In this document: positions 3,086 through 22,918 of the stretch, one piece after another
How the letters are laid out: each line of letters opens with the position of its first letter
How positions within the stretch are numbered: the stretch's first letter is position 1
DNA from: Agaribacterium sp. ZY112
GTDB taxonomy: Bacteria > Pseudomonadota > Gammaproteobacteria > Pseudomonadales > Cellvibrionaceae
Direction: 5' to 3'
Length of the DNA stretch: 64,000 nucleotides
NCBI RefSeq assembly: GCF_041346925.1
Contig: NZ_CP166840.1
Span: 1,364,001 to 1,428,000, forward strand
The notes under the pieces: generated by a model
Databases searched by the model: none
The model's input: only the letters and a program-made list of their open reading frames with translations
Told to the model about the DNA's origin: nothing
Program-made: the position numbers and the translations under genes

Positions 3086-3892
3086 TTAGCCTTTATTGAT
3101 TTCATCAAAGAAACGGAAGGTATCTTCGATGTGTTTGTTCCAGTAGGGCCATTCGTGGCCGCCGGGGAACTCTTCGTAAGTAAAATCTAAACCGGCTTCT
3201 TCAAGGCGGGCTTTGAATTTCAAGTTACCTTGGTAGAGCTGATCTTCAGTACCGCAGTCGAAGCGCATTGGGGGCATAGAGTCTTTGTTCTTCTGCATCC
3301 AATAAACGATATCGGCTTCACCTTCGGCAGCGTCAGCCGCAAGCTCGTAGTACTCGGGACCTTCTTTATTGAAATCCTGAATCTCAGCTTTGTCGGTAAT
3401 AGAGCTGTGACCACTGATACCGGCAAATTTGTCGGCGTACTTCGCACCTAAGCGAAGCGCACCGTAACCACCCATGCTCAGGCCAGTGATAAACAACTTA
3501 CTGTTGTCGCTGACGCCGTCGACGCTCTGGATCACACCTTCGAGCATGTCTTCAACTATCCACTTGTCGAAGTCGAAGTTCTTAAGCGGCAAGTAACCAG
3601 AACCTGCGTAGTAGGAGCCGTCTTCGGGCATAACCAATACAAACTCGCCGAGGCCCTGCTCACGAAGCTTGTTGTAAGCCTCGTGTACACCACCCAGGTG
3701 CATCCACACCCAGTGGTTGCCCCAGACGCCGTGCATCAGGATTACGATTGGTAAGTCTTTACTGCCGCTATAGGCGTTGTAGACACTGATGTTGCCACGG
3801 CCTTTAAGCGCTGAGCTGTGCACGGTGAGCAGCATTAGCTGCTCGTCGTTCATATACTTGGGGTTGGACTTTTCTATCTGTTGAATTGCCAT
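3086..3892 (-). CDS. Alpha/beta-hydrolase, S-formylglutathione-hydrolase (esterase D)-like
   Basis: A 268-residue cytoplasmic alpha/beta hydrolase of the esterase D / S-formylglutathione hydrolase superfamily. The nucleophile elbow reads GLSMGGYGAL (Ser about residue 139), an oxyanion-type HGVWGNHW stretch lies near residue 55, and the catalytic His is probably in GGHEWPYW near the end. Length fits the family (about 280). The start at 3892 is preceded by GGAGAG. It begins 20 bp after the alcohol dehydrogenase gene, so the two form an operon. In the classical pathway this enzyme hydrolyses the formyl-thiol made by the dehydrogenase to formate. That substrate is inferred from context; a general acyl esterase, for instance acting on acetylated sugars, is the alternative. 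Confidence 0.8.
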   Translation of the reverse strand: MAIQQIEKSNPKYMNDEQLMLLTVHSSALKGRGNISVYNAYSGSKDLPIVILMHGVWGNHWVWMHLGGVHEAYNKLREQGLGEFVLVMPEDGSYYAGSGYLPLKNFDFDKWIVEDMLEGVIQSVDGVSDNSKLFITGLSMGGYGALRLGAKYADKFAGISGHSSITDKAEIQDFNKEGPEYYELAADAAEGEADIVYWMQKNKDSMPPMRFDCGTEDQLYQGNLKFKARLEEAGLDFTYEEFPGGHEWPYWNKHIEDTFRFFDEINKG

Positions 3893-3912
3893 CTCTTACT
3901 CTCCAACAGCGC

Positions 3913-5031
3913 TTAGTCGTCGTGCTCAATAACAATCACACCCTTGGCTATGCGGCCTTTGAGCATGTCGTCAAAACCTTCCGCTGCTGTCTCGAGGGTG
4001 TAGGTCTTGGTGACCATCTCGTCGAGCATGTACTTGCCGCTGTTGTAGAGTTCAACAATGCGCGGGAAGTCACGGTCTGGGTTGCACTTGCCGTAGAGTG
4101 GGTTGATGTAGATTTTGTCCCACTCAAACAGCTCACAGTCAAAGTCGATTTTCTCTTCAATACCACTCACCTGCACTGCAGTACCTGCAGAGCGGATCAG
4201 GGCCAGAGGGGCAGAGCCTAGGGCTGGAACCGCAGTACACTCAAAGGCGTAGTCGGCGCGGCGGCCGCCGTTGATCTCGGCAACTTTTTCGCCGATCTTA
4301 TTGAAGTCGTTGTCGCCTTTAGTGGCGAGGATGCCGTGGGTGGCACCGAATTTCTGGGCTTGCTCCAAGCGCTCTTCGCTTAGATCGATTGCGATAATAC
4401 GAGCCGCACCGCTATGCAGAGCGCCCTGAATTACGTTGAGGCCAACACCACCGCAGCCGATTACGGCAACGGTTGAGCCTGCTTTAACTTCAGCGGCATT
4501 TACAACTGAACCCCAGCCGGTGATCACACCACAGCCAACAATAGAGGCTGAGGTCATCGGTAAGTCGGTTTCGCCCATAGCAACAACAGCACCCTGCTGA
4601 ACAACGGTGTACTGAGCCATGGTGCCGAGGTGGAAAGAGCGCTCGACGTCTTCGCCTTCGAGTTTGCTCGCCGCGCCGTGAGCGTGACCGCAAAGGTCGT
4701 TGCCACAAACTGGGCTGTTAACTTCACAGATGTGAGGATTGCCTTCAAGGCACTGGAAGCACTCACCACAAGGGATGGCCCAGTTAAGAATTACCTTGTC
4801 GCCAACGGCAACACGAGTAACGCCTTCACCTACAGCATCAACGATGCCTGCGCCTTCGTGGCCGACAACAAAAGTCTTGTTCCAGTTAGTAATACTGTCC
4901 CAATCCGTGTGACAGATACCGGAGGCCATTAGCTTAACGCGAACCTCTCCAGGGCCAGGATCTCCGACCTCAATTGTACGAACTTCGAAGTGGCCTTGGC
5001 CGTCTGTAATTAGAGCTTTAGATTGACGCAT
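3913..5031 (-). CDS. Zn-dependent alcohol dehydrogenase, formaldehyde-dehydrogenase-like
   Basis: A 372-residue medium-chain dehydrogenase with catalytic zinc site (ICHTD, GHEGAG) and a four-Cys structural zinc lobe (CGECFQC...HIC). The Rossmann motif is VIGCGGVGL near residue 195. Layout resembles thiol-dependent formaldehyde dehydrogenases (class III or mycothiol type), including YGKCNPDRDFPRI near the C-terminus. First gene of a leftward operon with the esterase (20 bp gap). A divergent AraC regulator lies 266 bp away. The 15-base word at 5107-5121, about 76 bp upstream of the start, recurs before the P450 gene, suggesting joint control. Inferred role: oxidation of formaldehyde released by P450 demethylation. 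It could equally act on another algal sugar aldehyde or alcohol. Confidence 0.87.
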   Translation of the reverse strand: MRQSKALITDGQGHFEVRTIEVGDPGPGEVRVKLMASGICHTDWDSITNWNKTFVVGHEGAGIVDAVGEGVTRVAVGDKVILNWAIPCGECFQCLEGNPHICEVNSPVCGNDLCGHAHGAASKLEGEDVERSFHLGTMAQYTVVQQGAVVAMGETDLPMTSASIVGCGVITGWGSVVNAAEVKAGSTVAVIGCGGVGLNVIQGALHSGAARIIAIDLSEERLEQAQKFGATHGILATKGDNDFNKIGEKVAEINGGRRADYAFECTAVPALGSAPLALIRSAGTAVQVSGIEEKIDFDCELFEWDKIYINPLYGKCNPDRDFPRIVELYNSGKYMLDEMVTKTYTLETAAEGFDDMLKGRIAKGVIVIEHDD

Positions 5032-5106
5032 GACAAATATTTACCGAACTGAATGTGGCAGGGATTACACCATCGTGTAAGTGGGCTTTCTGTAACAAAG
5101 CTCATA

Positions 5107-5121
5107 AAAAGTAGCATAATA
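5107..5121 (-). promoter_or_regulatory. Shared 15-base word upstream of alcohol dehydrogenase
   Basis: AAAAGTAGCATAATA (plus strand) lies in the gap between the alcohol dehydrogenase and the divergent AraC gene. The identical 15 bases occur at 22624-22638 upstream of the P450 gene, in the same orientation relative to the target. It is a candidate activator site, most simply for the adjacent AraC protein. AT-rich context makes chance similarity less than impossible. Confidence 0.5.
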
Positions 5122-5297
5122 TTGTCTAGTTTTCTAAAAAAGGGGAGTTATATAGTGAAAAATTCCTATCCCTATGACATAAATAGCGAAAATATAGAGC
5201 CCTCGGGAAGAAAGTGGCTTACGCTGAAGTAGTTATGGAGCATAAGCAGCGAATAATTTAAGTCTTTGTACGATTAAAGAGACGGGTAGATCCTCGA

Positions 5298-6179
5298 ATG
5301 AAAAAAAATAATACATATTGCGAACCTTTTTGCATACGAGAAGGTTACAACTTCGAAGTTCACTACGTTAGCTATGAGGAGCAGGACCCTTATTCCTGTT
5401 TTATGCATTTCCATGAAGTTCACGAGCTGATCGTTTTTGAAGAAATTGAAGGGCGCTTTTTTTACCATCAAGGTGAGAGTGACTTACAAGATCAGGACCT
5501 GGTGTTTACACCGGCCCTAGAAACACATGATTTTGAGTGTACAGATCGACAAAAATCGTGGTTTATTGTTCAGTTCCTGCCTTCGTTTCTAGAGGAAAAT
5601 GGCCTAGCTCAAGCGGAAGCTTTTTTTAAGTATGGAATGCACTTAAGGCTCGATGATGGCTCTAAAGAAAAAATTAGGCAGGTAGTAGCGTGGTTGCATG
5701 AGAGTTATGAGGCTGATCCATTTAGCGATAAAAGCCAAAGTTTGTTGAAATTATTATTAAGCTGGATTGCTGAAGTTGCTAAGCCTGTTAAAGAGCCGCA
5801 TACTCATAATCAGTCACGGCCGATGAACGATGCTCGCTTAGAACCTATTCTAAATTTATTTCGCCGCAATAAAAGCGTTGATCTTAGTTTAAATGAGGCC
5901 GCTGATTTGTGTCATTTAAGCCCCTCTTATTTTTCACGCTTATTTAAAAGTGTTTTTCGTTACAACTACAGCGAATATAGCATCCGCCATCGCCTATATA
6001 GTGCAGCTCGTTTACTTTGCCAAAGTGGCTATAGTGTGACTGATGTAAGTTATGAGTTGAATTTTTCTAGCCCTTCACATTTTATTGCTTTATTTAAAAA
6101 GCAATTTGGGGTGACGCCTAAAAAATACAAGCAAAGTTTTTTAGATCGAGCTAAAGAGGGGGAAGTAGAGGTTAGCTGA
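5298..6179 (+). CDS. AraC-family transcriptional regulator
   Basis: A 293-residue regulator. The N-terminal half (about 1-110) has a cupin-like ligand domain with HFHEVHEL and a beta-rich segment. The C-terminal ~100 residues (about 190-290) carry the two helix-turn-helix motifs of AraC/XylS proteins, with LSPSYFSRLFKSVF in the first and the PSHFIALFKKQFGVTPKKY signature in the second. It is transcribed away from the alcohol dehydrogenase operon and ends at a strong terminator. Position and fold suggest a sugar-responsive activator of the divergent operon and perhaps of the P450 operon through the shared 15-base word. The inducer is unknown. Confidence 0.92.
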   Translation: MKKNNTYCEPFCIREGYNFEVHYVSYEEQDPYSCFMHFHEVHELIVFEEIEGRFFYHQGESDLQDQDLVFTPALETHDFECTDRQKSWFIVQFLPSFLEENGLAQAEAFFKYGMHLRLDDGSKEKIRQVVAWLHESYEADPFSDKSQSLLKLLLSWIAEVAKPVKEPHTHNQSRPMNDARLEPILNLFRRNKSVDLSLNEAADLCHLSPSYFSRLFKSVFRYNYSEYSIRHRLYSAARLLCQSGYSVTDVSYELNFSSPSHFIALFKKQFGVTPKKYKQSFLDRAKEGEVEVS

Positions 6180-6221
6180 TAAATTCAGTGTTTAATACTG
6201 AAGTGACGTTGTGCAGGATAT

Positions 6222-6251
6222 AAAAAACCCAGTGTAAGCACTGGGTTTTTT
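6222..6251. terminator. Bidirectional intrinsic terminator
   Basis: A-run, a CCCAGTG/CACTGGG hairpin and a T-run lie between the convergent AraC gene (ends 6179) and GH3 gene (ends 6274), serving both. Confidence 0.9.
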
Positions 6252-6273
6252 GTTTGTCTTCTTTCTCTGTTTG

Positions 6274-8499
6274 TCAGAATGTTATTTTCTTCGAGGCAGG
6301 TTTACTGGCACCAAGTTTTTTACTGCGCTTGCTCGGTAACGCATTGGCAATGTGTACGTAGTATTTTCCAGAAAGCGCCTGTTTTTTACCTTCGTTGTTG
6401 ATTTGGCTAAGCTCATCTGCGCTTAAGCTGAAGTTAATTTGTTTTTTCTCACCTGCTTTTAGTTCAAGACGTTGAAACTTTTTAAGCACATAAAGGGCCT
6501 CTCCGTTGCTAGCCTTAACCGGTTCTAGGTAGAGCTGAGCGATGTCGCTGCCGTCTCGTTGGCCGGTGTTTTTTATGGTTGCACTGACATTTAAGCCGCC
6601 ATCTTTGGTTTTTTCGGTTTTAAGCTTGCTGTAACTGAAGTTGGTATAGCTTAAACCAAAGCCAAAGGGGTAAAGTGGTTCTTCGGTCATGTATTTATAG
6701 GTGCGCCCTTGCATGCTGTAGTCCCCATAGTCTGGTAATTGATCTACCGATTTTGGGAAGGTTAGAGGCAGGTGGCCCGACGGGTTGGCGTCACCAAAAA
6801 TGATATCGGCTACGGCATTGCCACCTTGCTCGCCGGGATACCAAACTTGTAAAACAGCATCGGCTAGGTCATGTAGCTCGCCTAGTGCTACAGGGCTGCC
6901 GCTAGCTACTACTAAGATAAGCGGGCCTTTTTTGTTTTTGGCGATGGTTTTAATGTAATCAACTTGGTTGGCTGGTAGGCTCAAGCTAACGCGGTCGCCT
7001 TTGTCGGCCGAGGCAATAGCATCGACTTCTTCGCCCTCCATATCCGCGGAAATCCCTACTACTGCGATTGTTGCATCGGCCGTTTTGGCGACCATTGGGG
7101 CCCAATTTAATGGGTTTAGGTTTTCATGGAAAGGCAGGGCGCCCATGCGGTAATTTAATGATGAAGACATAGAAAGCTTGTTAGCGATTCCTTCTAATAT
7201 AGTCACCATATTGCCGGAGATACCGTAATAATTTGCCATGAGTACATCGCTAGATGAAGCAAAAGGCCCAGTAACATAAGGCACTTTAATATCTTTGCTT
7301 AGCGGTAGGGTGTTGTTATCGTTTTTAAGTAGGACGATTGATTTAGTTGCTACTTCACGCGCAAGGGCGATATGTTCAGGGCTGTTTACTTGTTCTATGT
7401 GTACGTCGTTAAAAGGGTTTGCTTCGATAGGATCAAAGAAACCAAGGCGAAAGCGGATCAGCATAAGCTCTTTTAAACGTGAATCGATCAGCTCTTCGTT
7501 AATTAGCTTTTGATCTAAGGCTGCACTTAATTCTGGGTAGGTAAAGCCACAGTTTAGATTTACCCCAGCTTCAAGGGCTGTGGCTGCTGCCTGCGGTGGC
7601 GTTTCAACGTATTTGTGGCCGTGATGGATATCGTACAGGGCTCCGCAATCTGAGACTATATAGCCATTAAAGCCCCACTGGTCTTTGAGCAGATCTTTGA
7701 GTAGGAAATCTGAGGCGCATGCGGGTATCCCATCGACGGCGTTATAAGCACACATTAAACCTGCGACCTTTGCTTCACTAATGAGTGCTTCAAAAGCCGG
7801 TAGGTAGGTCTCATAGAGGTCTTTGGCTGAAGCTCTAGCATCAAAAGTATGGCGTTCTGCTTCTGGCCCTGAATGCACCGCAAAGTGTTTTGCAGCGGCC
7901 GCAGACTTTAAATACTTGGGGTGCTCGCCCTGTAGTCCGCGGACAAATTCACTGCCCATGGTGGCATTAAGTAGAGGGGATTCACCATAGGTTTCTTGTC
8001 CGCGTCCCCAGCGTGGATCACGGAAAATATTGATATTCGGGCTCCAAAAGGTGAGTCCGGTGTACTGTCCGCGATTGCCCGCGGACGCGGCTAGCAGGTG
8101 CTTGGCTCGTGCTTCGGTTGAAATTGCATCGGCCATGCGGTGTGCTAGTTGTGGGTCAAAACTTGCGGCAAGCCCAATAACTTGAGGGAAAATAGTGGCT
8201 CGGCCGTTGCGAGCAACGCCATGTAGAGCCTCGTTCCACCAGTTGTATTCAGGTAGGCCAAGCCTATCTATAGCCGGAGTCTTTTCGCTGAGTTGAGCGA
8301 TCTTCTCTTCAGTTGTCATTGCATTTATAAGTTGCTCTGCTCGGGACTCAAAGCTCAAGTTTGAGTTGTACCAAGCGAATTTGGGCTCAGAGCTATTTGC
8401 TTGTACCGCAGTACCTAGGGTGCTCAGGCTTACTAAAGCTAAGGTGGTGGGGCGTATTCGATGTTTGAAAAAGGCTTGAAAGTGAGCTCGTAAAGACAT
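6274..8499 (-). CDS. GH3 family exo-glycosidase (beta-glucosidase/xylosidase type)
   Basis: A secreted or periplasmic glycoside hydrolase family 3 enzyme of 741 residues. The N-terminus has a basic region followed by a hydrophobic signal stretch ending near VQANS. The motif FWSPNINIFRDPRWGRGQE is typical of the xylosidase-like GH3 branch. The nucleophile Asp is in VSDCGALYD (about residue 283). The C-terminal fibronectin III-like domain (about 620-735) is present. ATG 8499 is preferred; the longer frame would begin with TTG at 8508. Two LacI-type boxes lie in the divergent region shared with the ABC gene. In an agar/porphyran region it might act as an exo-beta-galactosidase-like enzyme, but xylose or glucose linkages cannot be excluded. 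Confidence 0.92.
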   Translation of the reverse strand: MSLRAHFQAFFKHRIRPTTLALVSLSTLGTAVQANSSEPKFAWYNSNLSFESRAEQLINAMTTEEKIAQLSEKTPAIDRLGLPEYNWWNEALHGVARNGRATIFPQVIGLAASFDPQLAHRMADAISTEARAKHLLAASAGNRGQYTGLTFWSPNINIFRDPRWGRGQETYGESPLLNATMGSEFVRGLQGEHPKYLKSAAAAKHFAVHSGPEAERHTFDARASAKDLYETYLPAFEALISEAKVAGLMCAYNAVDGIPACASDFLLKDLLKDQWGFNGYIVSDCGALYDIHHGHKYVETPPQAAATALEAGVNLNCGFTYPELSAALDQKLINEELIDSRLKELMLIRFRLGFFDPIEANPFNDVHIEQVNSPEHIALAREVATKSIVLLKNDNNTLPLSKDIKVPYVTGPFASSSDVLMANYYGISGNMVTILEGIANKLSMSSSLNYRMGALPFHENLNPLNWAPMVAKTADATIAVVGISADMEGEEVDAIASADKGDRVSLSLPANQVDYIKTIAKNKKGPLILVVASGSPVALGELHDLADAVLQVWYPGEQGGNAVADIIFGDANPSGHLPLTFPKSVDQLPDYGDYSMQGRTYKYMTEEPLYPFGFGLSYTNFSYSKLKTEKTKDGGLNVSATIKNTGQRDGSDIAQLYLEPVKASNGEALYVLKKFQRLELKAGEKKQINFSLSADELSQINNEGKKQALSGKYYVHIANALPSKRSKKLGASKPASKKITF

Positions 8500-8555
8500 G
8501 GAGGGCAAGCACCTCTATTATTGTGTATATAGTTAGGTTAGTAGGGCATTTCATA

Positions 8556-8569
8556 TTTAATCGTTTTCG
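8556..8569. promoter_or_regulatory. Possible LacI-type box, degenerate
   Basis: The minus-strand reading CGAAAACGATTAAA matches 12 of 14 bases of the box at 8652-8665. It lies 57 bp upstream of the GH3 start. Confidence 0.35.
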
Positions 8570-8651
8570 TTACGTTTTAGCTGAGGCTAAGAACTGGGTT
8601 TGCTCTTGAGTAACGGTTTATATGAATAAAATGCTTGTCATTACCGTAACA

Positions 8652-8665
8652 TGAAAACGATTACA
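8652..8665. promoter_or_regulatory. LacI-family-type operator
   Basis: TGAAAACGATTACA fits the LacI/CcpA-type consensus TGWAANCGNTNWCA at every position. It sits in the divergent region between GH3 and the ABC ATPase gene. A matching box (26951-26964) precedes the first GH50 gene. No LacI regulator is encoded in the window. Confidence 0.5.
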
Positions 8666-8759
8666 TTTGTCGAGAAACTTGTTGTATTTGATGGTATTAC
8701 TTTTGCATTTGTACCTGAAAAATAACAGCTTTGCTTGGTCCTTACACTAGGTTACTACT

Positions 8760-9488
8760 ATGAGTCCTATTTTGAGCATGAGCGAGCTCAACAAGTCCTT
8801 TGTTCAAGGCATGTCAGAAACGCTTGCTCTACGGGGCATTAATTTTAGTGTGAGTGCTGGTGAGTTTGTGGCGGTTACAGGGCCTTCTGGTGCAGGCAAA
8901 AGTACCTTGCTCAATATTGCCGGTCTATTAGATGTGGCTGATAGCGGTACTTACCTGCTAGATGGTAAGGATGTCAGTCGTTTAAAAGAACGTGAACTGG
9001 CACGTTTACGCAATCAATGTCTTGGTTATGTCTTTCAAAACGCGAATTTAATACCTGAGCTCAATGTCTTTGATAATCTCGACCTGCCCTTGCGCTATAG
9101 AGCGATGCCAGCTCGTCAAAGACGAACTCGTATTAATGACGTATTAAGTCAATTGGGGCTTAGCTCTAGAAAACATCATTTTCCTAGTCAATTATCGGGT
9201 GGTCAGCGTCAGCGTGTTGCGATCGCCCGAGCGGTTGTCACTGAGCCTAAACTTATTCTCGCTGATGAGCCGACCGGTAGTTTGGATTCATTAATGGCGA
9301 GGCAAGTCATGGATATGCTGGAGTCTTTAAACGCAAGTGGTATTGCTGTGGTGCTTGTGACTCATGACCATGAGTTGGCTCGCCGTGCTCACAGGCAAAT
9401 CCATATTGTTGACGGTCGTTTATTGGATGACCCTGTTCAGGGGGTAATGCTTAATGAGGCTTTAGTCTCTGCAGATTTAACACTTTAG
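8760..9488 (+). CDS. ABC transporter ATPase, LolD/MacB type
   Basis: A 242-residue ATPase. Walker A is GPSGAGKST (about 41-49), the Q-loop lies in FQNANL, the signature is LSGGQRQRVAIARA, Walker B is LILADEPTGSLD, and the H-loop is VTHDHE. The sequence is closest to the LolD/MacB/FtsE group that works with FtsX-like permeases and drives mechanotransmission or outward transport rather than import. It starts a rightward five-gene unit (ATPase, two permeases, response regulator, histidine kinase) with very short gaps. Substrate is unknown; antimicrobial peptide or lipopeptide export/resistance is a common role of similar units. Confidence 0.93.
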   Translation: MSPILSMSELNKSFVQGMSETLALRGINFSVSAGEFVAVTGPSGAGKSTLLNIAGLLDVADSGTYLLDGKDVSRLKERELARLRNQCLGYVFQNANLIPELNVFDNLDLPLRYRAMPARQRRTRINDVLSQLGLSSRKHHFPSQLSGGQRQRVAIARAVVTEPKLILADEPTGSLDSLMARQVMDMLESLNASGIAVVLVTHDHELARRAHRQIHIVDGRLLDDPVQGVMLNEALVSADLTL

Positions 9489-9501
9489 TTATGACTTAAT
9501 C

Positions 9502-10902
9502 ATGGGGCATCTGTTTTTTATTACGCGAGTCGCTTTTTTGAAGCTTCAGCAAAGCCTGCTTTCATCGGTGCTTGCTGTTTTAGTGTTGTGTGCCGGTGTC
9601 TCGGTGTTTTTTGTTGTGCTTACCGTGTTAGATGCAGCCTCTAAAAACCCTTTTTCTGATAAGGATGAGCGACTGTATTCGCTTCGGCTTAGTGCTTGGC
9701 AACCTGATTCTTTTGGTGGTTTGGGGCGAGCTTCTTCTCAGCAGAAGTCGATGCTCTATGAGCATGCGCCGGTGCCGAAGCAGCTAATATGGCGAGATGC
9801 ATTGGCGATTTTTAATAATAATTCGGTTTGGCCAATGTCTATTAGCTACCTGACGGGAGCTAAAATTAGTCGTGAAGGTCAAACTACCCCTCCATTTTTA
9901 GTGACATCTCGTGCTGTTACTGGGCGTTTTTTTTCTATGTTTGAGGTTCCACTTCTATATGGGGCTAGTTGGGAGGAGCGTTTTGACCGACCGATAGCGG
10001 GTTCTATGCTGCAAGATCGAGATACGATTTACCCCATCATTCTTTCGAATAGATTAAGTCAGCAATTATTTAAGCTTAGCAATAGCGTTGGTAAGCAGCT
10101 TAATTTTTCTGGGCGCCGCTTTGAAGTAGTTGGTGTGATAGATGAGTGGGCACCAGCTCCCAAGGTCCATGATTTAGAGGCGGGGGTGTTTGGTCCTGCT
10201 GATCAGAGCTTCATTCCTTTTTATTTGGCTGTTGCCCTAGAGTTGGATCGTTGGGGTGGAGTTGAGAGTCGACCTTCATTCCCGGTCTTTTCAAGTTTTG
10301 ATCAGGGGCTTGTTAGTGATTTGGCGTGGATTCAGTTTTGGCTTGAGCTAGATGGTAAGCAAGAGAAAGAAGTCTTTGAGCAGTGGTTACAAGGCTATAT
10401 CGATAGTGAGCGTAAAGCTGGGCGTTTTACTTATCAAGCTAATTTTTATTTGGATAAGCCTTCAGAGTTGCTAGTTTTGCATAGTGTGGTGGGCAGTGAC
10501 CTAAAGATGATGCTGGTTGTTGCACTTATTTTTCTTATAATTTGTATATTGAATTTCTCTCTTATTGTTTATTCTCGTTTTTCTCGGGCATCCAGCTCTT
10601 TGGGGGTCCAGCTTAGTTTGGGGGCTAGCCGTTCTAATTTATTTATTCAGCAATGTGCGGAGGTATTTCTGCTAAGCACCTTGGCGTTGTGTTTTTCAGC
10701 TTTTTCTACTCACGTATTACTGTTTGTCTTTGAGGGCCTGCATGCCAGCACGCTTTCACATCGTTTACCTATAAAAGAAGCCTTATTTTATTTCTTTGTT
10801 GTACTTATCTTTATCGTTTTTTGCGCATCTCTTCTCCCCTCTATTAAAATCATGTCTGCAACGGCCTCCTCGTTATTAAAAAAAGAGGGGCGCTATGCTT
10901 GA
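9502..10902 (+). CDS. FtsX/MacB-like ABC permease 1
   Basis: A 466-residue membrane protein with one N-terminal transmembrane helix (about 15-38), a large periplasmic domain (about 40-335), and three C-terminal helices (about 345-460), the MacB/FtsX layout. It starts 13 bp after the ATPase gene and overlaps the second permease gene by 8 bp, so translational coupling is likely. With the next protein it probably forms a heterodimeric permease. No HlyD-type periplasmic adaptor gene is nearby, unlike in MacAB efflux. Confidence 0.85.
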   Translation: MGHLFFITRVAFLKLQQSLLSSVLAVLVLCAGVSVFFVVLTVLDAASKNPFSDKDERLYSLRLSAWQPDSFGGLGRASSQQKSMLYEHAPVPKQLIWRDALAIFNNNSVWPMSISYLTGAKISREGQTTPPFLVTSRAVTGRFFSMFEVPLLYGASWEERFDRPIAGSMLQDRDTIYPIILSNRLSQQLFKLSNSVGKQLNFSGRRFEVVGVIDEWAPAPKVHDLEAGVFGPADQSFIPFYLAVALELDRWGGVESRPSFPVFSSFDQGLVSDLAWIQFWLELDGKQEKEVFEQWLQGYIDSERKAGRFTYQANFYLDKPSELLVLHSVVGSDLKMMLVVALIFLIICILNFSLIVYSRFSRASSSLGVQLSLGASRSNLFIQQCAEVFLLSTLALCFSAFSTHVLLFVFEGLHASTLSHRLPIKEALFYFFVVLIFIVFCASLLPSIKIMSATASSLLKKEGRYA

Positions 10903-12097: not shown

Positions 12098-12104
12098 GGG
12101 TTCC

Positions 12105-14760: not shown

Positions 14761-15088
14761 ATAAAGTAGTCATTTACTATAGTATTTAATTGTTATTGTT
14801 GGCCTGTCTTTTTGTGTCCGATGGTCGTACGGTGGCCGTCCGATTCCCGTCTTTTTATTTGTCTTTTGTTTTTTATCTTCGCGAAAAGCTTTGTTAATGC
14901 GGCTTATAACACTTTCTTCTGTTTTTGGATCGCTTATTGCAAAAGCCTCTAATGCACTCGAGCAGGTTCTGACTTTAGATATGTATAAATGGACTTATAC
15001 CGTTGTTAAGCCTAGTTAAGGTTTAAGCTTACGTCGACAACGAAGGCCTGCTCAGCAAAATAATAAATAATAAATCTGAGGTCAGCCC
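14761..15088. other. GH86 upstream region
   Basis: A 328-bp AT-rich gene-free stretch upstream of the GH86 gene. Apart from the GC-rich box at 14815-14844 and a GAGG ribosome-binding site before 15089, I see no RNA gene or convincing terminator. Confidence 0.7.
14815..14844. promoter_or_regulatory. GC-rich box with TGTCCGAT and CCGTCCGAT
   Basis: TGTCCGAT, 13 bases, then CCGTCCGAT stand out from the AT-rich surroundings. The same pair of words (TGTCCGAT and CCGTCGGAT, spacer 7) lies upstream of the PhoD-like gene, and CCGTCGGAT recurs upstream of the large TonB receptor. Candidate operator of a shared regulator. Confidence 0.4.
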
Positions 15089-18000
15089 ATGTATAAGCTA
15101 ACTCGCCTCTCGCATGCTGTCGGACTTGCTTCCGCTGTGTTTGCTGGTGGCCTATCTACAACGACATTGGCGAATGTCAAAGTAGACATCAATGCCAATG
15201 TTCTGCATTCGGTTAATGGTATTTCAAATTTTGGTCGTGAACGTCGCATTATGATTCACGCTACTCCAATCGAGAATGAATTTTTAGGTGAAAAAGAAAA
15301 GCTCGATTATTTAATGGAGCTAGGGGTGAGTTTTGGCCGTGATACAGGCACACCCACTTGGTACTTCAAGCAGACTCAGGGAGATTACACTCGTGAAGAT
15401 AACGGCCCTGAGATTTTTCCTTGGGGGCATGCGGGCAATCATGACCCTGAGCAATTCCAGCAGGCAGCGGGCGCTTACCATTGGGCTCTAGATAATAAGT
15501 TCGCTGATCATCAAGAATACTTTGATCGTGCGCCGGCGATGATTATGGGTTCTCAGCCTAAGCCTTCTTTTCCTAACTGGTCAGCTTATTCTTGGTTTGG
15601 TGGCGGCTTAGATACTGAAAGTCCATGGCGTCCGCGTACTATGGAGCAAGCGGCTGAATGGTATGCTGATTTTCTAGAGCAGATGTACCTTCGTGAAGAA
15701 GGTAATCCGAACCGTTTGGCTATGCCCAAATATTGGGAAGTGGTTAACGAGCCCGATATGTTAATGAATGTGCCAGGACATGAAGGGCATGTTTCTACTT
15801 GGGAAGAATTATTCCGTTATCACAATGTTGTTGCTGACGTTGTTCGTGAGCGCTTAGGTGATGACGCGCCTTTAATTGGTGGTATGACTTGGGGGTTGCA
15901 CGACCTTCAAAACGGTGACAAAACAGCAACGGGTGCACCTCGCCGTCAAGGGGACGCATTATTAAGTGCGTTTTATGGTAATGATGAAGGCTCTACATTA
16001 ATTAAAGATGCTATTACCAATGGTATTTTTGCTGAGTCTGAAAGCATGGCGGACTCCAATACAAATCGTCAGTGGTATCAGTGGGATGTTATCTGGAAAG
16101 GCTTTATGGATACGGCCGGCCAGAATATGGATTTCTATTCTATTCACACCTATGACTGGCCTCGCTGGCCCCAAGAAAATGGCGGTGTTAGGCGAACAGG
16201 TGTGCACACCGAGGGCGTATTAGACCAGCTTGAATGGTACGACATGAAAATGTTGGGTCAGCGTAAGCCCGTTATTGTTTCTGAGTATGGAACCGTTTCT
16301 GGTCGTTTCCAAACTCAAGGTACAACACTTGATCGCCACCGTATGCGCTGGGAGGCTTTAAAGCCTTTCTCTCAGCAAATGATGCAATTTATGGAGCGCC
16401 CTGATTACGTAACTGCATCCTTACCTTTTATTGTGGTTAAAGGTACTTGGGGTGATGCAGGCAAAACTGCACCGTATTCTCAGAGCCTATTAGATCGTGA
16501 TTATGATAGCTGTGAAGAAACGGCTGAGGCTTACGAGAATTGTACTTGGAACTTTAATGCTTCAATTCACTGGTATGAGTTATGGCGTGATGTTGAAGGT
16601 GAACGGGTTGATACTTATTCCAGCGACCGAGATATCCAGGTTGATGCTTATGTAAATAATAATGACATGAACGCAGAAAATCATATGTATGTCATTGTGA
16701 ATAGTTTGCATGGAGAGGAAACGAGTGTTGATTTAAGTTGGGCTGGTATTGACGGCAATGACATCAACAGCATTACCTTGCGTCACCTTTATTTAGATGA
16801 AACGCTTGATGCAGATGGTGATGTGAGTAATGGTATTGGTAAGCCTATTTTAGCTGAAGCTGAGCTTGCTAGTCTGCCGACTGAATTAACTGTGGGTGCG
16901 GATGCGACCTTTATTCTCGATATTGAATATGCCAATCCAATCGACTTAAGTCAGAGCAGTAATGAAACTAAATACGCAGCAGAGCCTTTGGCGGCTGCAG
17001 AACCCTACCGTGTAACAAGAAGCGCAACACCGTTATCGATTCAGATTAATGGTGTGGATAAGCCGGTTACAGGTGAAGCGCAATTACGAGTTACCGGTGG
17101 CTTTTTCTTAGCGAATGCGTTTAAAGGTACAGAGCAAGATCGTCGAGTTAAATTAACCGTAAACGGTAATGAAGTGGATGTGAATGCGGATTGGCGTGGT
17201 GAGAATTTTTACACGAATCGTCTGATGCTGACCATGGAGCTGCCTTTCCCTGCTGAATATTTGGCTGACGATGGCAATAACACGTTTGAGTTATTTACAC
17301 TCGCCTCTGGTGACTATAGTGCTGCGATGTTGCAGGTTTGGGATCAGAGCACGGATTTAAATCGAAGTGTTGTCACTGCGCCTTCCGGCGATGCGGTAAC
17401 AGGTTTGAGCTTGGCTGAAACCGGTACGATGAATATGAAAGTGACGGAGTCTGTCGCATTAACGGCGCAAATTGCTCCAGAAACAGCTGCTGATAAAAGT
17501 ATTACTTGGTCTTCTTCAGACTCTTCTGTTGTTAGTGTTGACCCGAATGGTCTTGTAACAGCAACGGGGCTTGGTACTGCAATAGTAACGGCAGAGTCTG
17601 TTGATGGCAGTTTTGTTGCCGACGTTGACTTTGATGTTAGTGCGCTTGTGCCAACGAGTGTTGGTATGAGTGGCGTGCCTGCCGAGCTTAATATCGGTGC
17701 TTCAAAGCAGCTAACTGCAGCAGTACGACCTATCCACGCTCAGAACCGAGCTGTTACCTGGAGCTCTTCAGACGAGAGCATTGCGACAGTTAGTGCGAGT
17801 GGTTTGGTGGAAGCTGTAGGTGCAGGTAATGTCACCATTACTGCAACAACAGTTGAGGGTGAGTTAAGTGCAAGGGCAAGCATTGAAGTTACTTCTCTAG
17901 CTTTAGATGCAATTACGATTACGCCTGAATTTACGGTACTACCTATTGCAGATGTGTTTCCTCTTTCAGTTGCTTTTACTCCTGCTAATGCAAGTGATAC

Positions 18001-19402
18001 CTCTGTGGTTTGGAGTTCTAGTAATACGAATGTTGCCACAGTAAGTGCTAGTGGTGAGGTGACGGCTGTAGCTGTCGGTACTGCAACTATTACAGCGCGC
18101 AGCAATGATGGTGAGCATACTGATGAAACTGCTGTTGAAGTTGTGGATGCTTCATCAGAAGCTGTTGTGATTGAAGCGGAAACCTTGGATGCAACAGGTG
18201 GTGCATTTGATGGTTTTGTTGTTTCCGAAACGAATATCAATACTAATCAAACCGGAGACTGGGCTGATTACAACATCAACTTTAGTGAAGCTGGGACCTA
18301 CCAAGTACAGGTTTCATTAGGCTCACCTGCTGGTGGCGGTATAGAGGCCTTTATTAACGGTGCAAGTATTGGTAGTGCAACCGTGCCTGCGACAGGTGGT
18401 TGGGATAGTTTGCAAGACATTACTGTGAGTAATGCCCTCGTTGTTGCAAGCCCTGGAACCTACACCTTGCGCATTTTGTCGGTAGGTGCTCCGGCAGCTT
18501 GGCAGTGGAATGCCGATAAACTAATGCTACGTAAGCTGACAGACAATGTGTCTGGTCCAGTACCAAGTCCATTGCCTTCAAGCGAGCCATCAGATCAGCC
18601 AACAGTAGAGCCTTCTGACGAACCAGTGGTAGAGCCTTCTGGTGAGCCATCGGTAGAACCTAGCAGTGATCCTTTACCTGAAGTAGATGACATCGTGCTT
18701 GAGTTAGAAAGTTTCATCGCAACAGGTCGTGATGATCCGGCTATAGGTGGTGATGATGATCAAGGCTTCCAAGTTGAAGATGGCATTATTAACTTTAATA
18801 CCACCGGTGATTGGGGTGATTACAGTATTGATGTTGAAACACGCGGCCGCTATCGCGCGGTGCTGAATTATGCTTCAGGTGTGCCTGTTGATAGAGAAAT
18901 AGCTGTGCGTTTGATCTCTGGAGGAAACACAATTGCTGAAACAGTATTGCCAAGCACAGGTGGTTGGGCAGCGTTTGTTGATTTTGATATCGCGGACGGT
19001 ATTGAATTTGATACGGCCGGAACTGTTTCGCTTCGAGTGCAAAGCTATGGTGCCAATGCATGGCAATGGAATGCTGACTATATCCGTTTTGAATTAGTTG
19101 AGTCGTTTGAGCCTGAGCCTGCGCCTTCGCCGGAAGCATCGGCAGAGCCTTCGCCGGAAGCATCGGCAGAGCCTTCGCCAGAAACTTCGGTAGAGCCTGC
19201 GCCAGAAACTTCGGCAGAGCCTGCGCCAGAGCCTACGCCAGAAACTTCGGCAGAACCTGCGCCAGAAACTTCGGTAGAGCCTGCACCAGAAACTTCGGAT
19301 GAAGCAGAAGAGGAAAAAGGTGGTGGTGCTTTTGATCCTTGGCAGCTGTTATTAATGCTAGGTGCTGGTTTTATTATTGCTGGCCGCAGAGTATTTAAAT
19401 AA
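15089..19402 (+). CDS. Multidomain GH86 beta-agarase/porphyranase
   Basis: A 1437-residue secreted enzyme. Order: signal peptide (1 to about 28); GH86 catalytic domain (about 30-540) with likely acid/base Glu in VVNEPDM (about 220) and nucleophile Glu in VSEYGTV (about 399); beta-sandwich domains to about 765; three Big_2 Ig-like domains (about 770-1020), each with a WSSSD/N motif; CBM6-like domain 1 (about 1020-1150); Pro/Ser/Glu linker; CBM6-like domain 2 (about 1200-1337) with WQWNAD as in the first; repeat linker; C-terminal GGGAFDPW, a hydrophobic helix and GRRVFK, resembling GlyGly-CTERM sorting tails. GH86 enzymes are endo-acting on agarose or porphyran. The adjacent P450 system favours methylated porphyran/agar, but the sequence alone does not settle the substrate. 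Strong terminator at 19431. Confidence 0.93.
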   Translation: MYKLTRLSHAVGLASAVFAGGLSTTTLANVKVDINANVLHSVNGISNFGRERRIMIHATPIENEFLGEKEKLDYLMELGVSFGRDTGTPTWYFKQTQGDYTREDNGPEIFPWGHAGNHDPEQFQQAAGAYHWALDNKFADHQEYFDRAPAMIMGSQPKPSFPNWSAYSWFGGGLDTESPWRPRTMEQAAEWYADFLEQMYLREEGNPNRLAMPKYWEVVNEPDMLMNVPGHEGHVSTWEELFRYHNVVADVVRERLGDDAPLIGGMTWGLHDLQNGDKTATGAPRRQGDALLSAFYGNDEGSTLIKDAITNGIFAESESMADSNTNRQWYQWDVIWKGFMDTAGQNMDFYSIHTYDWPRWPQENGGVRRTGVHTEGVLDQLEWYDMKMLGQRKPVIVSEYGTVSGRFQTQGTTLDRHRMRWEALKPFSQQMMQFMERPDYVTASLPFIVVKGTWGDAGKTAPYSQSLLDRDYDSCEETAEAYENCTWNFNASIHWYELWRDVEGERVDTYSSDRDIQVDAYVNNNDMNAENHMYVIVNSLHGEETSVDLSWAGIDGNDINSITLRHLYLDETLDADGDVSNGIGKPILAEAELASLPTELTVGADATFILDIEYANPIDLSQSSNETKYAAEPLAAAEPYRVTRSATPLSIQINGVDKPVTGEAQLRVTGGFFLANAFKGTEQDRRVKLTVNGNEVDVNADWRGENFYTNRLMLTMELPFPAEYLADDGNNTFELFTLASGDYSAAMLQVWDQSTDLNRSVVTAPSGDAVTGLSLAETGTMNMKVTESVALTAQIAPETAADKSITWSSSDSSVVSVDPNGLVTATGLGTAIVTAESVDGSFVADVDFDVSALVPTSVGMSGVPAELNIGASKQLTAAVRPIHAQNRAVTWSSSDESIATVSASGLVEAVGAGNVTITATTVEGELSARASIEVTSLALDAITITPEFTVLPIADVFPLSVAFTPANASDTSVVWSSSNTNVATVSASGEVTAVAVGTATITARSNDGEHTDETAVEVVDASSEAVVIEAETLDATGGAFDGFVVSETNINTNQTGDWADYNINFSEAGTYQVQVSLGSPAGGGIEAFINGASIGSATVPATGGWDSLQDITVSNALVVASPGTYTLRILSVGAPAAWQWNADKLMLRKLTDNVSGPVPSPLPSSEPSDQPTVEPSDEPVVEPSGEPSVEPSSDPLPEVDDIVLELESFIATGRDDPAIGGDDDQGFQVEDGIINFNTTGDWGDYSIDVETRGRYRAVLNYASGVPVDREIAVRLISGGNTIAETVLPSTGGWAAFVDFDIADGIEFDTAGTVSLRVQSYGANAWQWNADYIRFELVESFEPEPAPSPEASAEPSPEASAEPSPETSVEPAPETSAEPAPEPTPETSAEPAPETSVEPAPETSDEAEEEKGGGAFDPWQLLLMLGAGFIIAGRRVFK
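19105..19311 (+). repeat. Tandem repeat encoding Pro/Glu/Ser/Ala linker
   Basis: Imperfect repeats of about 24 bases encode units such as EPSPEASA and EPAPETSA in the GH86 protein, joining the second CBM6-like domain to the C-terminal anchor. Near-identical neighbouring units at the start of the tract make length variation by slippage plausible. Confidence 0.85.
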
Positions 19403-19430
19403 CTTTAAATAAATTGAAGTCCCTGCTTAG

Positions 19431-19456
19431 GCCCTCACATTGTGAGGGCTTTTTTT
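19431..19456 (+). terminator. Intrinsic terminator after GH86
   Basis: Perfect GCCCTCAC/GTGAGGGC-type stem with a two-base loop followed by seven T, 28 bp after the GH86 stop. Confidence 0.93.
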
Positions 19457-19509
19457 GTTTAATGCGCTCGCTTATTGATGTCAGCTCTAATTTTAGATCT
19501 GAATTGGTT

Positions 19510-20772
19510 TTAGATCTTAATTAGGTTCGCAGGCTTAAACTCAACGCTGGGGTCAGCGATTTTAGCCTTATCGACTTTATCGCCACCTTTAATAAACTTA
19601 GTGCCTACAACATAAGCTTTGGCAAAGTTAACGGCGTCAACAGACAATAGTTCTTCATCTTTAAAGTACCAAACTGAAAAACGTGTGCCTTCACCTTCTT
19701 CTTCACGAACGATAATGTCGCTATAACCTTGGCTTAAACCAACCATTTGCAATTTGATATCGTATTGATCAGACCAGAACCAAGGAATGGTGTTGTAAGT
19801 AACGTCTTTACCACATATGGCGGCAGCTGCGACTTTGGCTTGGTCTACGGCATTTTGTACCGACTCCAAACGAATCATGCGATCGTAGTGAGGGTTGTGG
19901 TGGACAGTACAATCGCCAATCGCATATATATTACTGTCATTGGTTTGTGCGCATTGATTTACTTTTAGGCCAACTTCAACCTCAAGACCTGCTTCTTGAG
20001 CAAGCTCGGCGTTTACTCGAATACCAACACCCACAATTATTAAATCGGCATCTAGGCGTGTGCCATCGTCACACAGCACTTGATTGCATGTGTCACCTTG
20101 TTCAATTGCGCTTACGTTTTTACTGGTAAATACATTGACGCCATTGTTAGCGTGAAGGTCTTGGAAGAACGCGCTCATATGAGGCGCAGTTACGCGCTGT
20201 AAAATACGCTCTTCGCGTTCAAGAACACTTACATCACCACCGAGTTTTTTAAGTGACGCCGCCGTTTCTAAACCGATATAGCCACCACCAATAACAACAA
20301 CGCGTTTTTGTTCGCTTTGATTAAAAGCTTTGCGGATATTATTGACGTCTTCTGCAGTTCGTAAGGGGTAGCACTTGGCGGCGTTTTCTAAACCTGGAAT
20401 AGGTGGAATAAATGGGCGGGCGCCAGTGGCGTAGACCAATTTGTCATAGGGCTGCTCGCTGCCGTCAGCTAAAAGTAAAATCTGTTTTTCTCTATCAATT
20501 TTACTGACGGTTTGGCCTAGGCGAAGTTCAATATTCGACTTCTCGTAGGTGTCGATATTTTTTAACAGATTTTTATCAATCGCGTCGTCGCTGGTTAAAT
20601 AAGCTTTTGAAAGCGGCGGTCGATGATAGGGGGTGGTTGGGTCGCTATCAATAAGAATAATCTGACCTTGCCAGCCCTCTTTGCGCATCGCAAAGGCAAA
20701 GTTGACGCCGGCATGGCTGGCGCCAATAACGGCGCAGACTTTTTGGGTAGTATCAGTTGTAGTATTCGACAT
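19510..20772 (-). CDS. Ferredoxin reductase (FAD/NADH), P450 electron transfer
   Basis: A flavoprotein of about 420 residues of the putidaredoxin/rhodocoxin reductase type. The FAD-binding GxGxxG-like motif near the start reads VIGASHAGVN; a second nucleotide-binding motif is VVIGGGYIGLE (about 160-170); ATGARP and IYAIGDC mark the FAD pyrophosphate region. It should pass electrons from NADH to the 2Fe-2S ferredoxin encoded upstream. ATG 20772 is the likelier start; an in-frame GTG at 20787 gives five more residues and neither has a strong ribosome-binding site. A hairpin plus T-run lies between ferredoxin and this gene, so it may be made in smaller amounts. Confidence 0.93.
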   Translation of the reverse strand: MSNTTTDTTQKVCAVIGASHAGVNFAFAMRKEGWQGQIILIDSDPTTPYHRPPLSKAYLTSDDAIDKNLLKNIDTYEKSNIELRLGQTVSKIDREKQILLLADGSEQPYDKLVYATGARPFIPPIPGLENAAKCYPLRTAEDVNNIRKAFNQSEQKRVVVIGGGYIGLETAASLKKLGGDVSVLEREERILQRVTAPHMSAFFQDLHANNGVNVFTSKNVSAIEQGDTCNQVLCDDGTRLDADLIIVGVGIRVNAELAQEAGLEVEVGLKVNQCAQTNDSNIYAIGDCTVHHNPHYDRMIRLESVQNAVDQAKVAAAAICGKDVTYNTIPWFWSDQYDIKLQMVGLSQGYSDIIVREEEGEGTRFSVWYFKDEELLSVDAVNFAKAYVVGTKFIKGGDKVDKAKIADPSVEFKPANLIKI

Positions 20773-20892
20773 AGTGTTAGGGTTCACTTAACTATTTATT
20801 AGCTGTCTAATGGGCTTAGTTCAGCTCTTTGGCGTGTGTCTTAGGGCTCTTTATTACTGTAATGGCGCTAAGTTTTAACTAAGAGGACAGGT

Positions 20893-20918
20893 AAAAAAAC
20901 GGCCGCTTAAGCGACCGC
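20893..20918 (-). terminator. Intrinsic terminator/attenuator between ferredoxin and reductase genes
   Basis: On the minus strand a seven-pair CGGTCGC/GCGGCCG stem (one G-T pair) with TTAA loop is followed by seven T. It lies 20 bp after the ferredoxin stop and about 120 bp before the reductase start. Confidence 0.85.
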
Positions 20919-20937
20919 ATTTTTATTTAGCAATGAG

Positions 20938-21246
20938 CTATTTGGCAACTCGAAACACGGCACCATCGAGTGCGTCAGTGACTTCTAGTTGGCAGCATAA
21001 GCGACTGTATTCGTCGGCATCGTCATCAAGCTCAAGCATGTCTTGCTCGATTTCACTGGCTTCACCTGTTTTCTCTGTGTGCTCAGGTAGAACGTGAACG
21101 TGACAGGTTGCGCATGAGCAAACGCCACCGCAGTCGCCATCAATGCCCTCAACGCCGTTGGCAACAGCCAGTTCCATCACTGAGCCTGAGTCGGCCTCTA
21201 AGGTGACTTGCTCATCATTGCTGGTAATAAAAGTAATCTTAGCCAT
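20938..21246 (-). CDS. 2Fe-2S ferredoxin, adrenodoxin/putidaredoxin type
   Basis: A 102-residue acidic ferredoxin. Cluster ligands are Cys39, Cys45, Cys48 (C-x5-C-x2-C) and a Cys of the CC pair at 84-85, the vertebrate/bacterial P450-type arrangement. It should shuttle single electrons from the reductase to the P450. It starts 91 bp after the P450 stop, on the same strand, with GAGAG upstream, and is followed by an intrinsic terminator. A third extra Cys (43) and paired Cys84/85 are visible. Confidence 0.95.
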   Translation of the reverse strand: MAKITFITSNDEQVTLEADSGSVMELAVANGVEGIDGDCGGVCSCATCHVHVLPEHTEKTGEASEIEQDMLELDDDADEYSRLCCQLEVTDALDGAVFRVAK

Positions 21247-21337
21247 TGTTTATGTCTCTCTATGTAATGCAGAGTTATAAGGTATGGGGCGCTGAACTAG
21301 GCGCCCTGAGAGTCTAATTTATCTTGTTGCTTTTGTG

Positions 21338-22495
21338 TTAGCGCGCGTTAAATTTAACGTCGATGCTGTCAAAGCCAACTTTGCGCTTAAATTGATCAAG
21401 ATCTTCAATATTTTCTTTGTAGTCTTGAATATCGATGCTTTCAACTTTTTCACATAGCGTTTCAATAAGGATGGCCATGATCGCTCGCGCATGGGTTGAG
21501 CCTAAGCAGTTGTGCGTGCCGAAACCAAAAGCTACATGTGGGTTTACTTTACGATCAAGTACCACTTCGTTTGCATCTGGGAAGGTTCGTTCGTCCCGGT
21601 TGGCAGAGGCCCAGCATAAGCCAACACGAGTATCAGCTTTAACAGCGTGTTCACACACAACTTGGTCTTCTGTAGCCACTCGCCCCATTTGTGTAAGAGG
21701 AGAAAAGTAGCGAATTAGTTCTTCAATTGCGCTGTTGCGAATTTCTGGCTCTTTGCGCAAGCGCTCAAGAGATTCGGGGTGATCGGCAAAATAAGCGATG
21801 CTATTGGTTAAGGTATTAATCACCGTGTCGCGACCGCCTGCAAAAGTGAGGATCATCACACCCTTTACCTCTTCTTTTGTCATTTTCTTGCCGTTGACTT
21901 CTGCAGCAAGTAAGACGCTATAGAGGTCTTCGCCTGGCTTGGCGATGGCTTTATCGATTTGTGCATCGATATAGTCATAAAGGATATTTGCTTTGTCGCC
22001 ATCTAGGTCCGAGTCTTCACTTCGGAAGACGTGGGTGCCCCAGTCAATCCAAACCTTGGATTCTTCGTAAGGAATATTTAGTAGAACTGTTAAGGCACGA
22101 CTTTGAAGTTTTAGGCTAAAATCACCGACTACTTCAAGTTTATCTACAGCGAGTGCGTCGTCGATACAGCCTTCGATAATGGTACGCAGTTTGGCTTGAT
22201 AGGCTTCTTCTGTTGGGCGCTTAAACCAAGGCTCAACTAAATCGCGATAGCTTTTATGTTCTGGCGGGTCAACTTCAAATGGAATTTGGCGGGTATCGCG
22301 AATGGCGACTTCAGATGGAATAACAATACGGCCAGGTTTTGCGCCACTTTGTAAGCCCTTCCAGTTGTGAGCGCCTTTACGGACATCTTTAAGGCGCAAA
22401 GCCATGAGTACAGGATCATCTTGATCGTTTTGGTGGCCAACACCTTCGCTGTCACGGGCTTCTTTGAACGGATCGGGTAGTTCACTGATTTTCAT
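21338..22495 (-). CDS. Cytochrome P450, probable 6-O-methyl-galactose demethylase (CYP236-like)
   Basis: A 385-residue soluble bacterial P450. Heme-binding loop FGFGTHNCLG has the axial Cys330; I-helix FAGGRDTVINT carries the acid-Thr pair; the ExxR motif is EELIR. With ferredoxin and reductase immediately downstream it makes a complete class I system. In marine agar/porphyran degraders such a trio oxidatively demethylates 6-O-methyl-D-galactose to galactose and formaldehyde. I assign that role from context (GH86, GH50, GH117 next door) and general resemblance, not from alignment. The shared 15-base word lies 129 bp upstream, linking it to the alcohol dehydrogenase operon. A fatty acid or terpene substrate is less likely here. 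Confidence 0.85.
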   Translation of the reverse strand: MKISELPDPFKEARDSEGVGHQNDQDDPVLMALRLKDVRKGAHNWKGLQSGAKPGRIVIPSEVAIRDTRQIPFEVDPPEHKSYRDLVEPWFKRPTEEAYQAKLRTIIEGCIDDALAVDKLEVVGDFSLKLQSRALTVLLNIPYEESKVWIDWGTHVFRSEDSDLDGDKANILYDYIDAQIDKAIAKPGEDLYSVLLAAEVNGKKMTKEEVKGVMILTFAGGRDTVINTLTNSIAYFADHPESLERLRKEPEIRNSAIEELIRYFSPLTQMGRVATEDQVVCEHAVKADTRVGLCWASANRDERTFPDANEVVLDRKVNPHVAFGFGTHNCLGSTHARAIMAILIETLCEKVESIDIQDYKENIEDLDQFKRKVGFDSIDVKFNAR

Positions 22496-22918
22496 GCTTT
22501 TATCTCTATAGTATTACTGTCGTTTGTGACTCATTCCATGGCACTGATGCGACAGAGTATTCGTATGTAAACGCTGGTCATAATAGAATCTGATTTAAGT
22601 CAAAAATACCGCCTGAATTAACCAAAAGTAGCATAATAATGCTTTTTAGCCTTTTTTTTATTAACTGTTGAGACGCTAGCTTTGGGTTTAAAGCCATTAT
22701 TTTGTCTCGATTATAGGGACTTTTTTGTCAAATTAATGGTATTTAGCCTGCTCTTATTGAGTGAATAAGTGAGTCTTAGATATCTTGTGCTTACTTTGGA
22801 AGTGGTAAGTTTTTGTTCTTTGTATGCATTAAGTTCTTTTAAAAAGCATCTGTTTTAACGGGTTTGCGCGAAAGGCATAAAGCGAATATGGTTTGTACTT
22901 TTGAGCGGGGCTTAACAT
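22496..22918. other. Divergent promoter region, P450 / halogenase
   Basis: A 423-bp AT-rich intergenic stretch between divergently transcribed genes. It contains the 15-base word at 22624-22638 and a partial LacI-like half-site (TGTAAACGCT, from 22566). No gene or RNA structure is apparent. Confidence 0.7.
22624..22638 (-). promoter_or_regulatory. Shared 15-base word upstream of P450
   Basis: AAAAGTAGCATAATA, identical to 5107-5121 before the alcohol dehydrogenase and in the same orientation relative to the regulated gene, 129 bp upstream of the P450 start. Confidence 0.5.

Follow-up and report, generated by a model that had tools for sequence, protein, structure and literature searches.

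A shared operator, probably read by AraC, links a putative P450 demethylase operon and an alcohol dehydrogenase-esterase operon of Agaribacterium

The question raised by this locus is whether two operons 17 kb apart, one for a cytochrome P450 with its ferredoxin and reductase and the other for a zinc alcohol dehydrogenase (ADH) and an esterase, form one regulon joined by sequence. Both lie in a stretch of 64,000 nucleotides from Agaribacterium sp. ZY112 (NZ_CP166840.1, positions 1,364,001 to 1,428,000), here called the window, to which positions refer unless another locus or the genome is named. The original prediction pointed to a 15-base word, AAAAGTAGCATAATA, oriented alike to both operons, and proposed as its reader the AraC-family regulator encoded beside the first copy (5298-6179, plus strand). 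The placement is borne out: the word is found at 5107-5121 and 22624-22638, on the plus strand in both cases. The genes that it precedes are on the minus strand, and the distance to the start is 75 bp for the ADH (5031) and 128 bp for the P450 (22495). Nor is it one of many unrelated copies, for a whole-genome search with one mismatch allowed returned exactly these two in 4.28 Mb. Rarity by itself is insufficient as proof, and within the window the word is statistically weak. Although it is the sole 15-mer pair between two different intergenic segments, taken alone it fails to beat chance: some exact 15-mer was shared in 89 of 400 dinucleotide shuffles of the window's intergenic DNA (mean 0.325 pairs). 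Its significance comes only from comparison with other genomes.

For that comparison, the regions upstream of 38 P450 genes and 43 ADH genes were sampled from marine Gammaproteobacteria. The same motif, AGCATAWATTTGATATTTTT, was recovered de novo, and separately, from the two sets: expectation-maximisation returned AGCATATATTTGATATTTTT when given only the P450 upstreams, and with only the ADH upstreams the best run yielded ATAGCATAAATTTGATATTT, which is the P450-set motif shifted two bases to the left, with near-equal runs giving AGCATAAATTTGATATTTTT. A matrix trained on the P450 set outscored all 60 shuffles in 24 of the 43 held-out ADH upstreams (36 of 38 in its own training set), and the ADH sites that it marks lie mostly 89-120 bp from the gene start. 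The ADH sites that enter the conserved columns, the offset counts, the count of sites of at least 18 bits and a 59-site matrix made from other genera were all placed with this P450 matrix; hence a test in the reverse direction is not independent, and the separate de novo search of the ADH set is the independent check. Scored with the other-genera matrix over 64 kb and both strands, the two window sites rank first (20.0 bits, P450) and second (16.3 bits, ADH), and the third-best position (13.6 bits) is intragenic. Public genomes, scanned with an alignment of AraC, yielded 42 loci, all from marine Gammaproteobacteria (Agaribacterium, Gilvimarinus, Marinimicrobium, Catenovulum, Paraglaciecola, Colwellia, Pseudoalteromonas, Marinomonas and others), in which 45 sites of at least 18 bits fall in target upstreams (41,540 positions) versus 2 elsewhere (1,586,856 positions), training sites included. 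Moreover, the operator precedes genes that were outside the training: it scores at least 18 bits before four of five PhyH-type dioxygenase genes (14.4 in the fifth, L074) and 18.3-23.8 bits before all three reductase-desaturase operons, and in four loci it stands at 17.7-25.4 bits before a sodium:solute symporter gene divergent from AraC. The sequence link between the two operons is real, and the 15-mer is very probably the core of a control site (operator).

What kind of promoter would such an operator serve? On the minus strand, box 1 of the P450 operon occupies 22624-22643 (AGCATTATTATGCTACTTTT, which includes the word at 22624-22638); it is followed by a second box, GTATTT, at 22604-22609, 24 bp past the TG of box 1 and in conserved columns, and by a -10-like hexamer, TATTAT, at 22580-22585 (+48). 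Before the ADH-esterase operon, also on the minus strand, box 1 is at 5107-5126 (GACAATATTATGCTACTTTT, which includes the word at 5107-5121), the second box, TTACAG, is at 5090-5095, 21 bp past the TG, and an extended -10-like element, TGGTGTAAT, at 5064-5072 is a one-base variant of TGnTnAAAT at +44. Among the sites scoring at least 9 (37 of the 38 P450 and 27 of the 43 ADH sites), 14 of the 37 P450 sites carry GTATTT at +23 or +24, none carries it elsewhere between +8 and +60, and 30 carry the loose pattern TRNNNT at +47 (next best offset, 12). Of the 27 ADH sites, 13 have ACAG at +23, 7 have TGACA at +21 and 15 have TGnTnAAAT within +43 to +45. The two window promoters agree with the offsets of their relatives to within one base. 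The second box resembles box 1 only partially and its offset is fixed; a scan for consensus promoters found nothing above its shuffles. The araI1-I2 site of araBAD is bound by an AraC-family activator at two in-line half-sites, and the second box and -10-like element at fixed spacing suggest a promoter of this kind. The likeness extends to in-line boxes about 21-24 bp apart, a second box near -35, a -10-like element at a fixed distance and a regulator gene divergent from a target. The difference lies in the box sequences: here the second box is TGACAG for ADH and GGTATTT for the P450, and may be no true repeat.

The AraC-family protein has a C-terminal DNA-binding domain (HTH_18/HTH_AraC; PF12833, 7.6e-21; PF00165, 1.1e-18); its N-terminal half has no Pfam match at 1e-3, and a conserved HFHEVHE block in alignment A1 has a cupin-like look. 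In a set of 58 genomes made up of the window's own and those of relatives, 7 have this P450 or a close orthologue (at least 55% identity). In a hand-picked group of 10, consisting of these 7 and 3 others (G002, G004 and G008, the last with a distant P450 only, 26% identical), ADH and AraC were both present in all 7 and neither was found in the 3. In an order-level draw AraC was found in 5 of 390 genomes at 1e-70; in a class-level draw the P450 orthologue was found at 1e-90 in 1 of 369, the window's own, which gives no test of P450 without AraC. In 33 of the 42 AraC loci the ADH gene is divergent from AraC and adjacent to it. Because the AraC gene travels with the operator, and because the operator also sits between AraC and the symporter in the four loci mentioned, AraC is the best candidate, and the divergent protein is likely to be the regulator that reads both operators. 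The idea of one regulon with AraC thus holds up, in that a conserved operator is common to the two operons and AraC goes with both. We consider it highly probable that the 15-mer is the core of the operator of this AraC protein and that its regulon comprises the P450-ferredoxin-reductase and ADH-esterase operons. A methylated galactose or a breakdown product would bind the N-terminal domain; AraC would then bind the two in-line boxes just upstream of the -10-like element and activate both operons, whereupon the P450 would demethylate the sugar and ADH and esterase would act on some product or by-product.

Several observations weigh against this account. Nineteen of the 43 ADH upstreams fail to beat all 60 shuffles, as do two P450 upstreams (Glaciecola KUL10 and Aestuariibacter A3R04); a good ADH site was not seen in Cellvibrio, G035, G009 and some Colwellia, and ADH and AraC lie close together in two further genera, with a gap of 36 bp in Pseudoalteromonas and of about 110 bp in Neiella. 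Loci L067 and L083 have AraC and P450 with no ADH match. The core of box 1 is partly palindromic, so that a dimeric repressor is possible. Among all 95 scored matches in the genome, the window sites rank second and seventh (the seventh tied, at 16.3). The better-scoring rivals at genome positions 3020316 and 1863384 are inside open reading frames; a further one at 4255045 (18.6 bits) is intergenic, with genes for an aldehyde dehydrogenase and a GH86-like protein nearby (names assigned by eye) and no gene start downstream on its strand within 400 bp. This last site belongs to L152:10340-15145 (G000:C1, about 4.253-4.258 Mb), where its orientation is unfit for a target and the GH86-like gene is a second one. 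A genome-wide regulon call from box 1 alone was tried and rejected as unspecific, the loose pattern giving 95 matches versus 52 for its reversed control.

The genomes that lack the P450 offer a further view of the regulon. Forty-four genomes were examined, with L086 left out and with L054 and L057 being metagenome assemblies. Absence was defined by type and threshold: a genome counts as lacking the P450 if nothing of its type matches at E <= 1e-60, and as lacking PhyH if nothing of its type matches at 1e-30; for the fusion described below the threshold is 1e-15. Of 19 genomes searched, six with AraC and ADH have no P450 of this type at 1e-60 (G423, G424, G427, G431, G432 and G433); it was found in the other 13 and in the remaining 25 of the 44. 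All six have another oxygenase behind the operator: a PhyH-type dioxygenase, a desaturase-Rieske fusion, or both. The PhyH-family gene (PF05721 in 5/5) directly follows AraC at L054:10966-11808, L055:9171-10037, L059:10965-11804, L071:10972-11805 and L074:10930-11790, with operators of 18.7, 18.1, 20.8, 21.5 and 14.4 bits, respectively. Residues H126, D128, H212 and R223 are invariant in the five sequences, and we take them to be the conserved HxD...H and R of PhyH Fe(II)/2-oxoglutarate dioxygenases; an AlphaFold2 model from the five sequences had a mean confidence (pLDDT) of 53 and was not used. The second type is a reductase followed by a fusion of fatty-acid desaturase and Rieske domains, at L072:2342-4911 in the sixth genome, that of Pseudocolwellia agarivorans (operator 18.3 bits), and also at L116 and L117; the pair is present in two of the five PhyH genomes, behind operators of 18.6 and 23.8 bits, and in Marinomonas flavescens it is divergent from ADH.

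PhyH of this type thus occurs in 5 and the fusion in 3 of the 44 genomes, and neither in any of the 38 with the P450; a different PhyH protein is found in L072 as well as at three loci that have the P450 (L060, L067 and L087). Six of six versus none of 38 comes to 1 in 7,059,052 by Fisher's test, worked by hand, and the true weight is below this figure since three of the six genomes are Marinomonas. Furthermore, what drew attention to the fusion was its operator in L072, where the P450 is lacking. On the AraC tree, which omits L087 for its frame breaks, the label "PhyH or fusion" takes 4 changes, at least 2 of them forced by well-supported branches, so the oxygenase type has switched more than once under one regulator. 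By position and operator, the PhyH and desaturase-Rieske enzymes are candidate sugar demethylases, though perhaps for a substrate other than the P450's. In our judgment the chances are even that three sugar O-demethylases, unrelated and able to replace one another, are served by a single regulator and a single ADH-esterase pair. These would be the P450 system, the PhyH-type Fe(II)/2-oxoglutarate dioxygenase, and the membrane desaturase-type diiron-Rieske fusion with its own reductase, and ADH and esterase would act on their common product, possibly formaldehyde bound to an unknown thiol. If this is true, the PhyH-type and desaturase-Rieske enzymes are new carbohydrate demethylases.

AraC control has to be weighed against other accounts of the shared word. 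That it is a chance repeat of an AT-rich sequence is what the shuffles of the window's intergenic DNA would allow, but the other-genera matrix ranks both copies at the top of the window and each gene set yields the motif de novo, which leaves this account next to no probability. The operator might instead be real and be read by another regulator, with AraC a mere neighbour; a GntR-type protein encoded in the agar cluster (46140-46745) or a palindrome-using repressor would be examples. The P450 site does contain a perfect inverted repeat, AGCAT-N4-ATGCT, and a GntR homologue is present in 8 of the 42 AraC loci (L048, L049, L051, L052, L064, L067, L083 and L086). However, the palindrome is lost in the consensus (AGCA versus TGAY), many sites preserve the spacing of the second box and the -10, and no GntR homologue was seen in the other 34 loci, a count made in the loci only, whole genomes not having been searched for GntR. 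Moreover, where an ADH operator is seen in the 33 loci with ADH adjacent to and divergent from AraC, it is in the gap between those two genes. We regard a reader other than AraC as quite improbable.

The remaining account concerns what the AraC regulon does. The original prediction had made the second operon a formaldehyde-oxidation operon of dehydrogenase, formyl-thiol hydrolase and formate-type oxidoreductase, co-regulated with the P450. Its one-regulon part stands, since co-regulation with the P450 holds; its chemistry mostly does not. The window ADH scores 202 bits against the glutathione formaldehyde dehydrogenase family TIGR02818, below the curated cut-off of 543.95, and the esterase scores 24.4 bits against the S-formylglutathione hydrolase family TIGR02821, below its cut-off of 281.7, with 25 bits to the S-formylglutathione hydrolase 6jzl. 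A TIGR02818 member above the cut-off is present in 43 of the 44 genomes, elsewhere than the operator-linked ADH. In this genome it lies at 3,535,545-3,536,648 (721 bits), 2.2 Mb from the window and adjoined by a formylglutathione-hydrolase-like gene (assigned by eye), and this adhC-fghA pair has no operator, the best score in 5.5 kb being 5.0 bits. The window ADH is an orthologue of FoADH and ZoADH, the enzymes given as PDB 8h2a and 8h2b by Brott et al. (PMC10033563). According to the main text of that paper, neither showed formaldehyde activity, whether NAD or NADH was supplied alone or a thiol was added (glutathione, mycothiol, bacillithiol, cysteine, CoA or ergothioneine), and dismutase activity was likewise absent. 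Knockout of the Zobellia ADH impaired growth on 6-O-methyl-galactose and not on galactose, and the authors leave room for an unknown thiol (PMC10033563, main text). That room, and the occurrence of ADH and esterase with two other oxygenases, of which formaldehyde could be a common by-product, speak for the formaldehyde account; the family cut-offs, the separate adhC-fghA pair and the assays on two orthologues led us to reject it as the principal one, and we hold it to be unlikely.

Nor does the FdhF/YdeP gene (602-2776), the third member of that proposed unit, appear to belong to it. It is on the same strand as the esterase, 309 bp away; it adjoins the gene set only in the sister species (L047) among the 42 loci, with a 34% homologue elsewhere in the L065 locus, and no operator-like site precedes it among the window's best 12 by the other-genera matrix. 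The gap holds a 40-nucleotide inverted repeat at 2813-2894, 83% complementary with 2 nucleotides between the arms, which may split the esterase and FdhF/YdeP transcripts.

Set beside known systems, the ADH-esterase operon is like adhC/frmA-fghA in having a zinc ADH followed by an esterase, and differs in that its genes fall below the family cut-offs and the true pair is elsewhere in the genome. The PhyH-type proteins match the profile of the dioxygenases SnoK (5epa) and MysH (9c9n), with HxD...H and an arginine 11 residues on, but the similarity is weak (54 and 53 bits) and the relatives' genes are tied to the ADH-esterase regulon. As described in the main text of PMC10033563, the Flavobacteriia porphyran loci share the gene set of a related P450, redox partners, ADH and esterase; here, in contrast, the host is a gammaproteobacterium, the genes lie within an agar-type cluster as two operons separated by 17 kb, and an AraC-type operator is common to both. 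The main text of that paper contains no word that starts with "AraC" or "regulat". The methyl-sugar demethylation genes of marine Gammaproteobacteria gain a predicted regulator, operator and promoter anatomy, and two candidate new sugar demethylases are named by comparison. The FoADH/ZoADH puzzle is sharpened as well: which product would oxygenases of the P450, 2-oxoglutarate-dependent and desaturase-Rieske types all yield?

As to the genes themselves, the P450 (21338-22495, minus strand) matches PDB 6g5o, which we take to be the Zobellia 6-O-methyl-galactose demethylase P450, over its full length at 612.6 bits, the next match being 148.5. Its partners, on the same strand, are a 2Fe-2S ferredoxin (20938-21246; Pfam Fer2), whose gene follows the P450 in relatives with both genes in the locus, and a ferredoxin reductase (19510-20787; Pyr_redox_2 and Reductase_C). 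By full-length similarity the P450 with these partners fits the 6-O-methyl-galactose P450 demethylase group. A tryptophan-halogenase-like gene (22919-24427) is divergent from the P450, with the upstream region in common. The ADH (3913-5031, minus strand) is by similarity nearer to 8h2a and 8h2b (475.4 and 454.1 bits) than to any other solved ADH (next, 182.2). The esterase (3086-3892, minus strand), which adjoins ADH in relatives too, has 4rgy as its best PDB match at 87.6 bits. The surrounding cluster is presumably mainly of agar type, with GH50, GH117 and anhydrogalactose genes; porphyranase-type domains are found by Pfam in 15089-19402.

Genes for sugar uptake are also seen in these loci. 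The symporters with an AraC-side operator are at L061:154-1716, L062:8046-9608, L085:8101-9660 and L087:8224-9792, the family being called by Pfam for L062 and L087 and from similarity in the other two. No site of at least 15 bits belongs to the homologues in L060 and L069 themselves, and the L060 homologue is divergent from the P450 with its site. The AraC-divergent symporter is a candidate methyl-sugar transporter. In two Marinomonas loci a gene resembling that of an ATP-binding cassette (ABC) sugar-binding protein follows the esterase (L055:5812-7047 and L059:6546-7769, by eye), and a protein that looks similar by eye is encoded elsewhere in the window's cluster, at 47720-49021.

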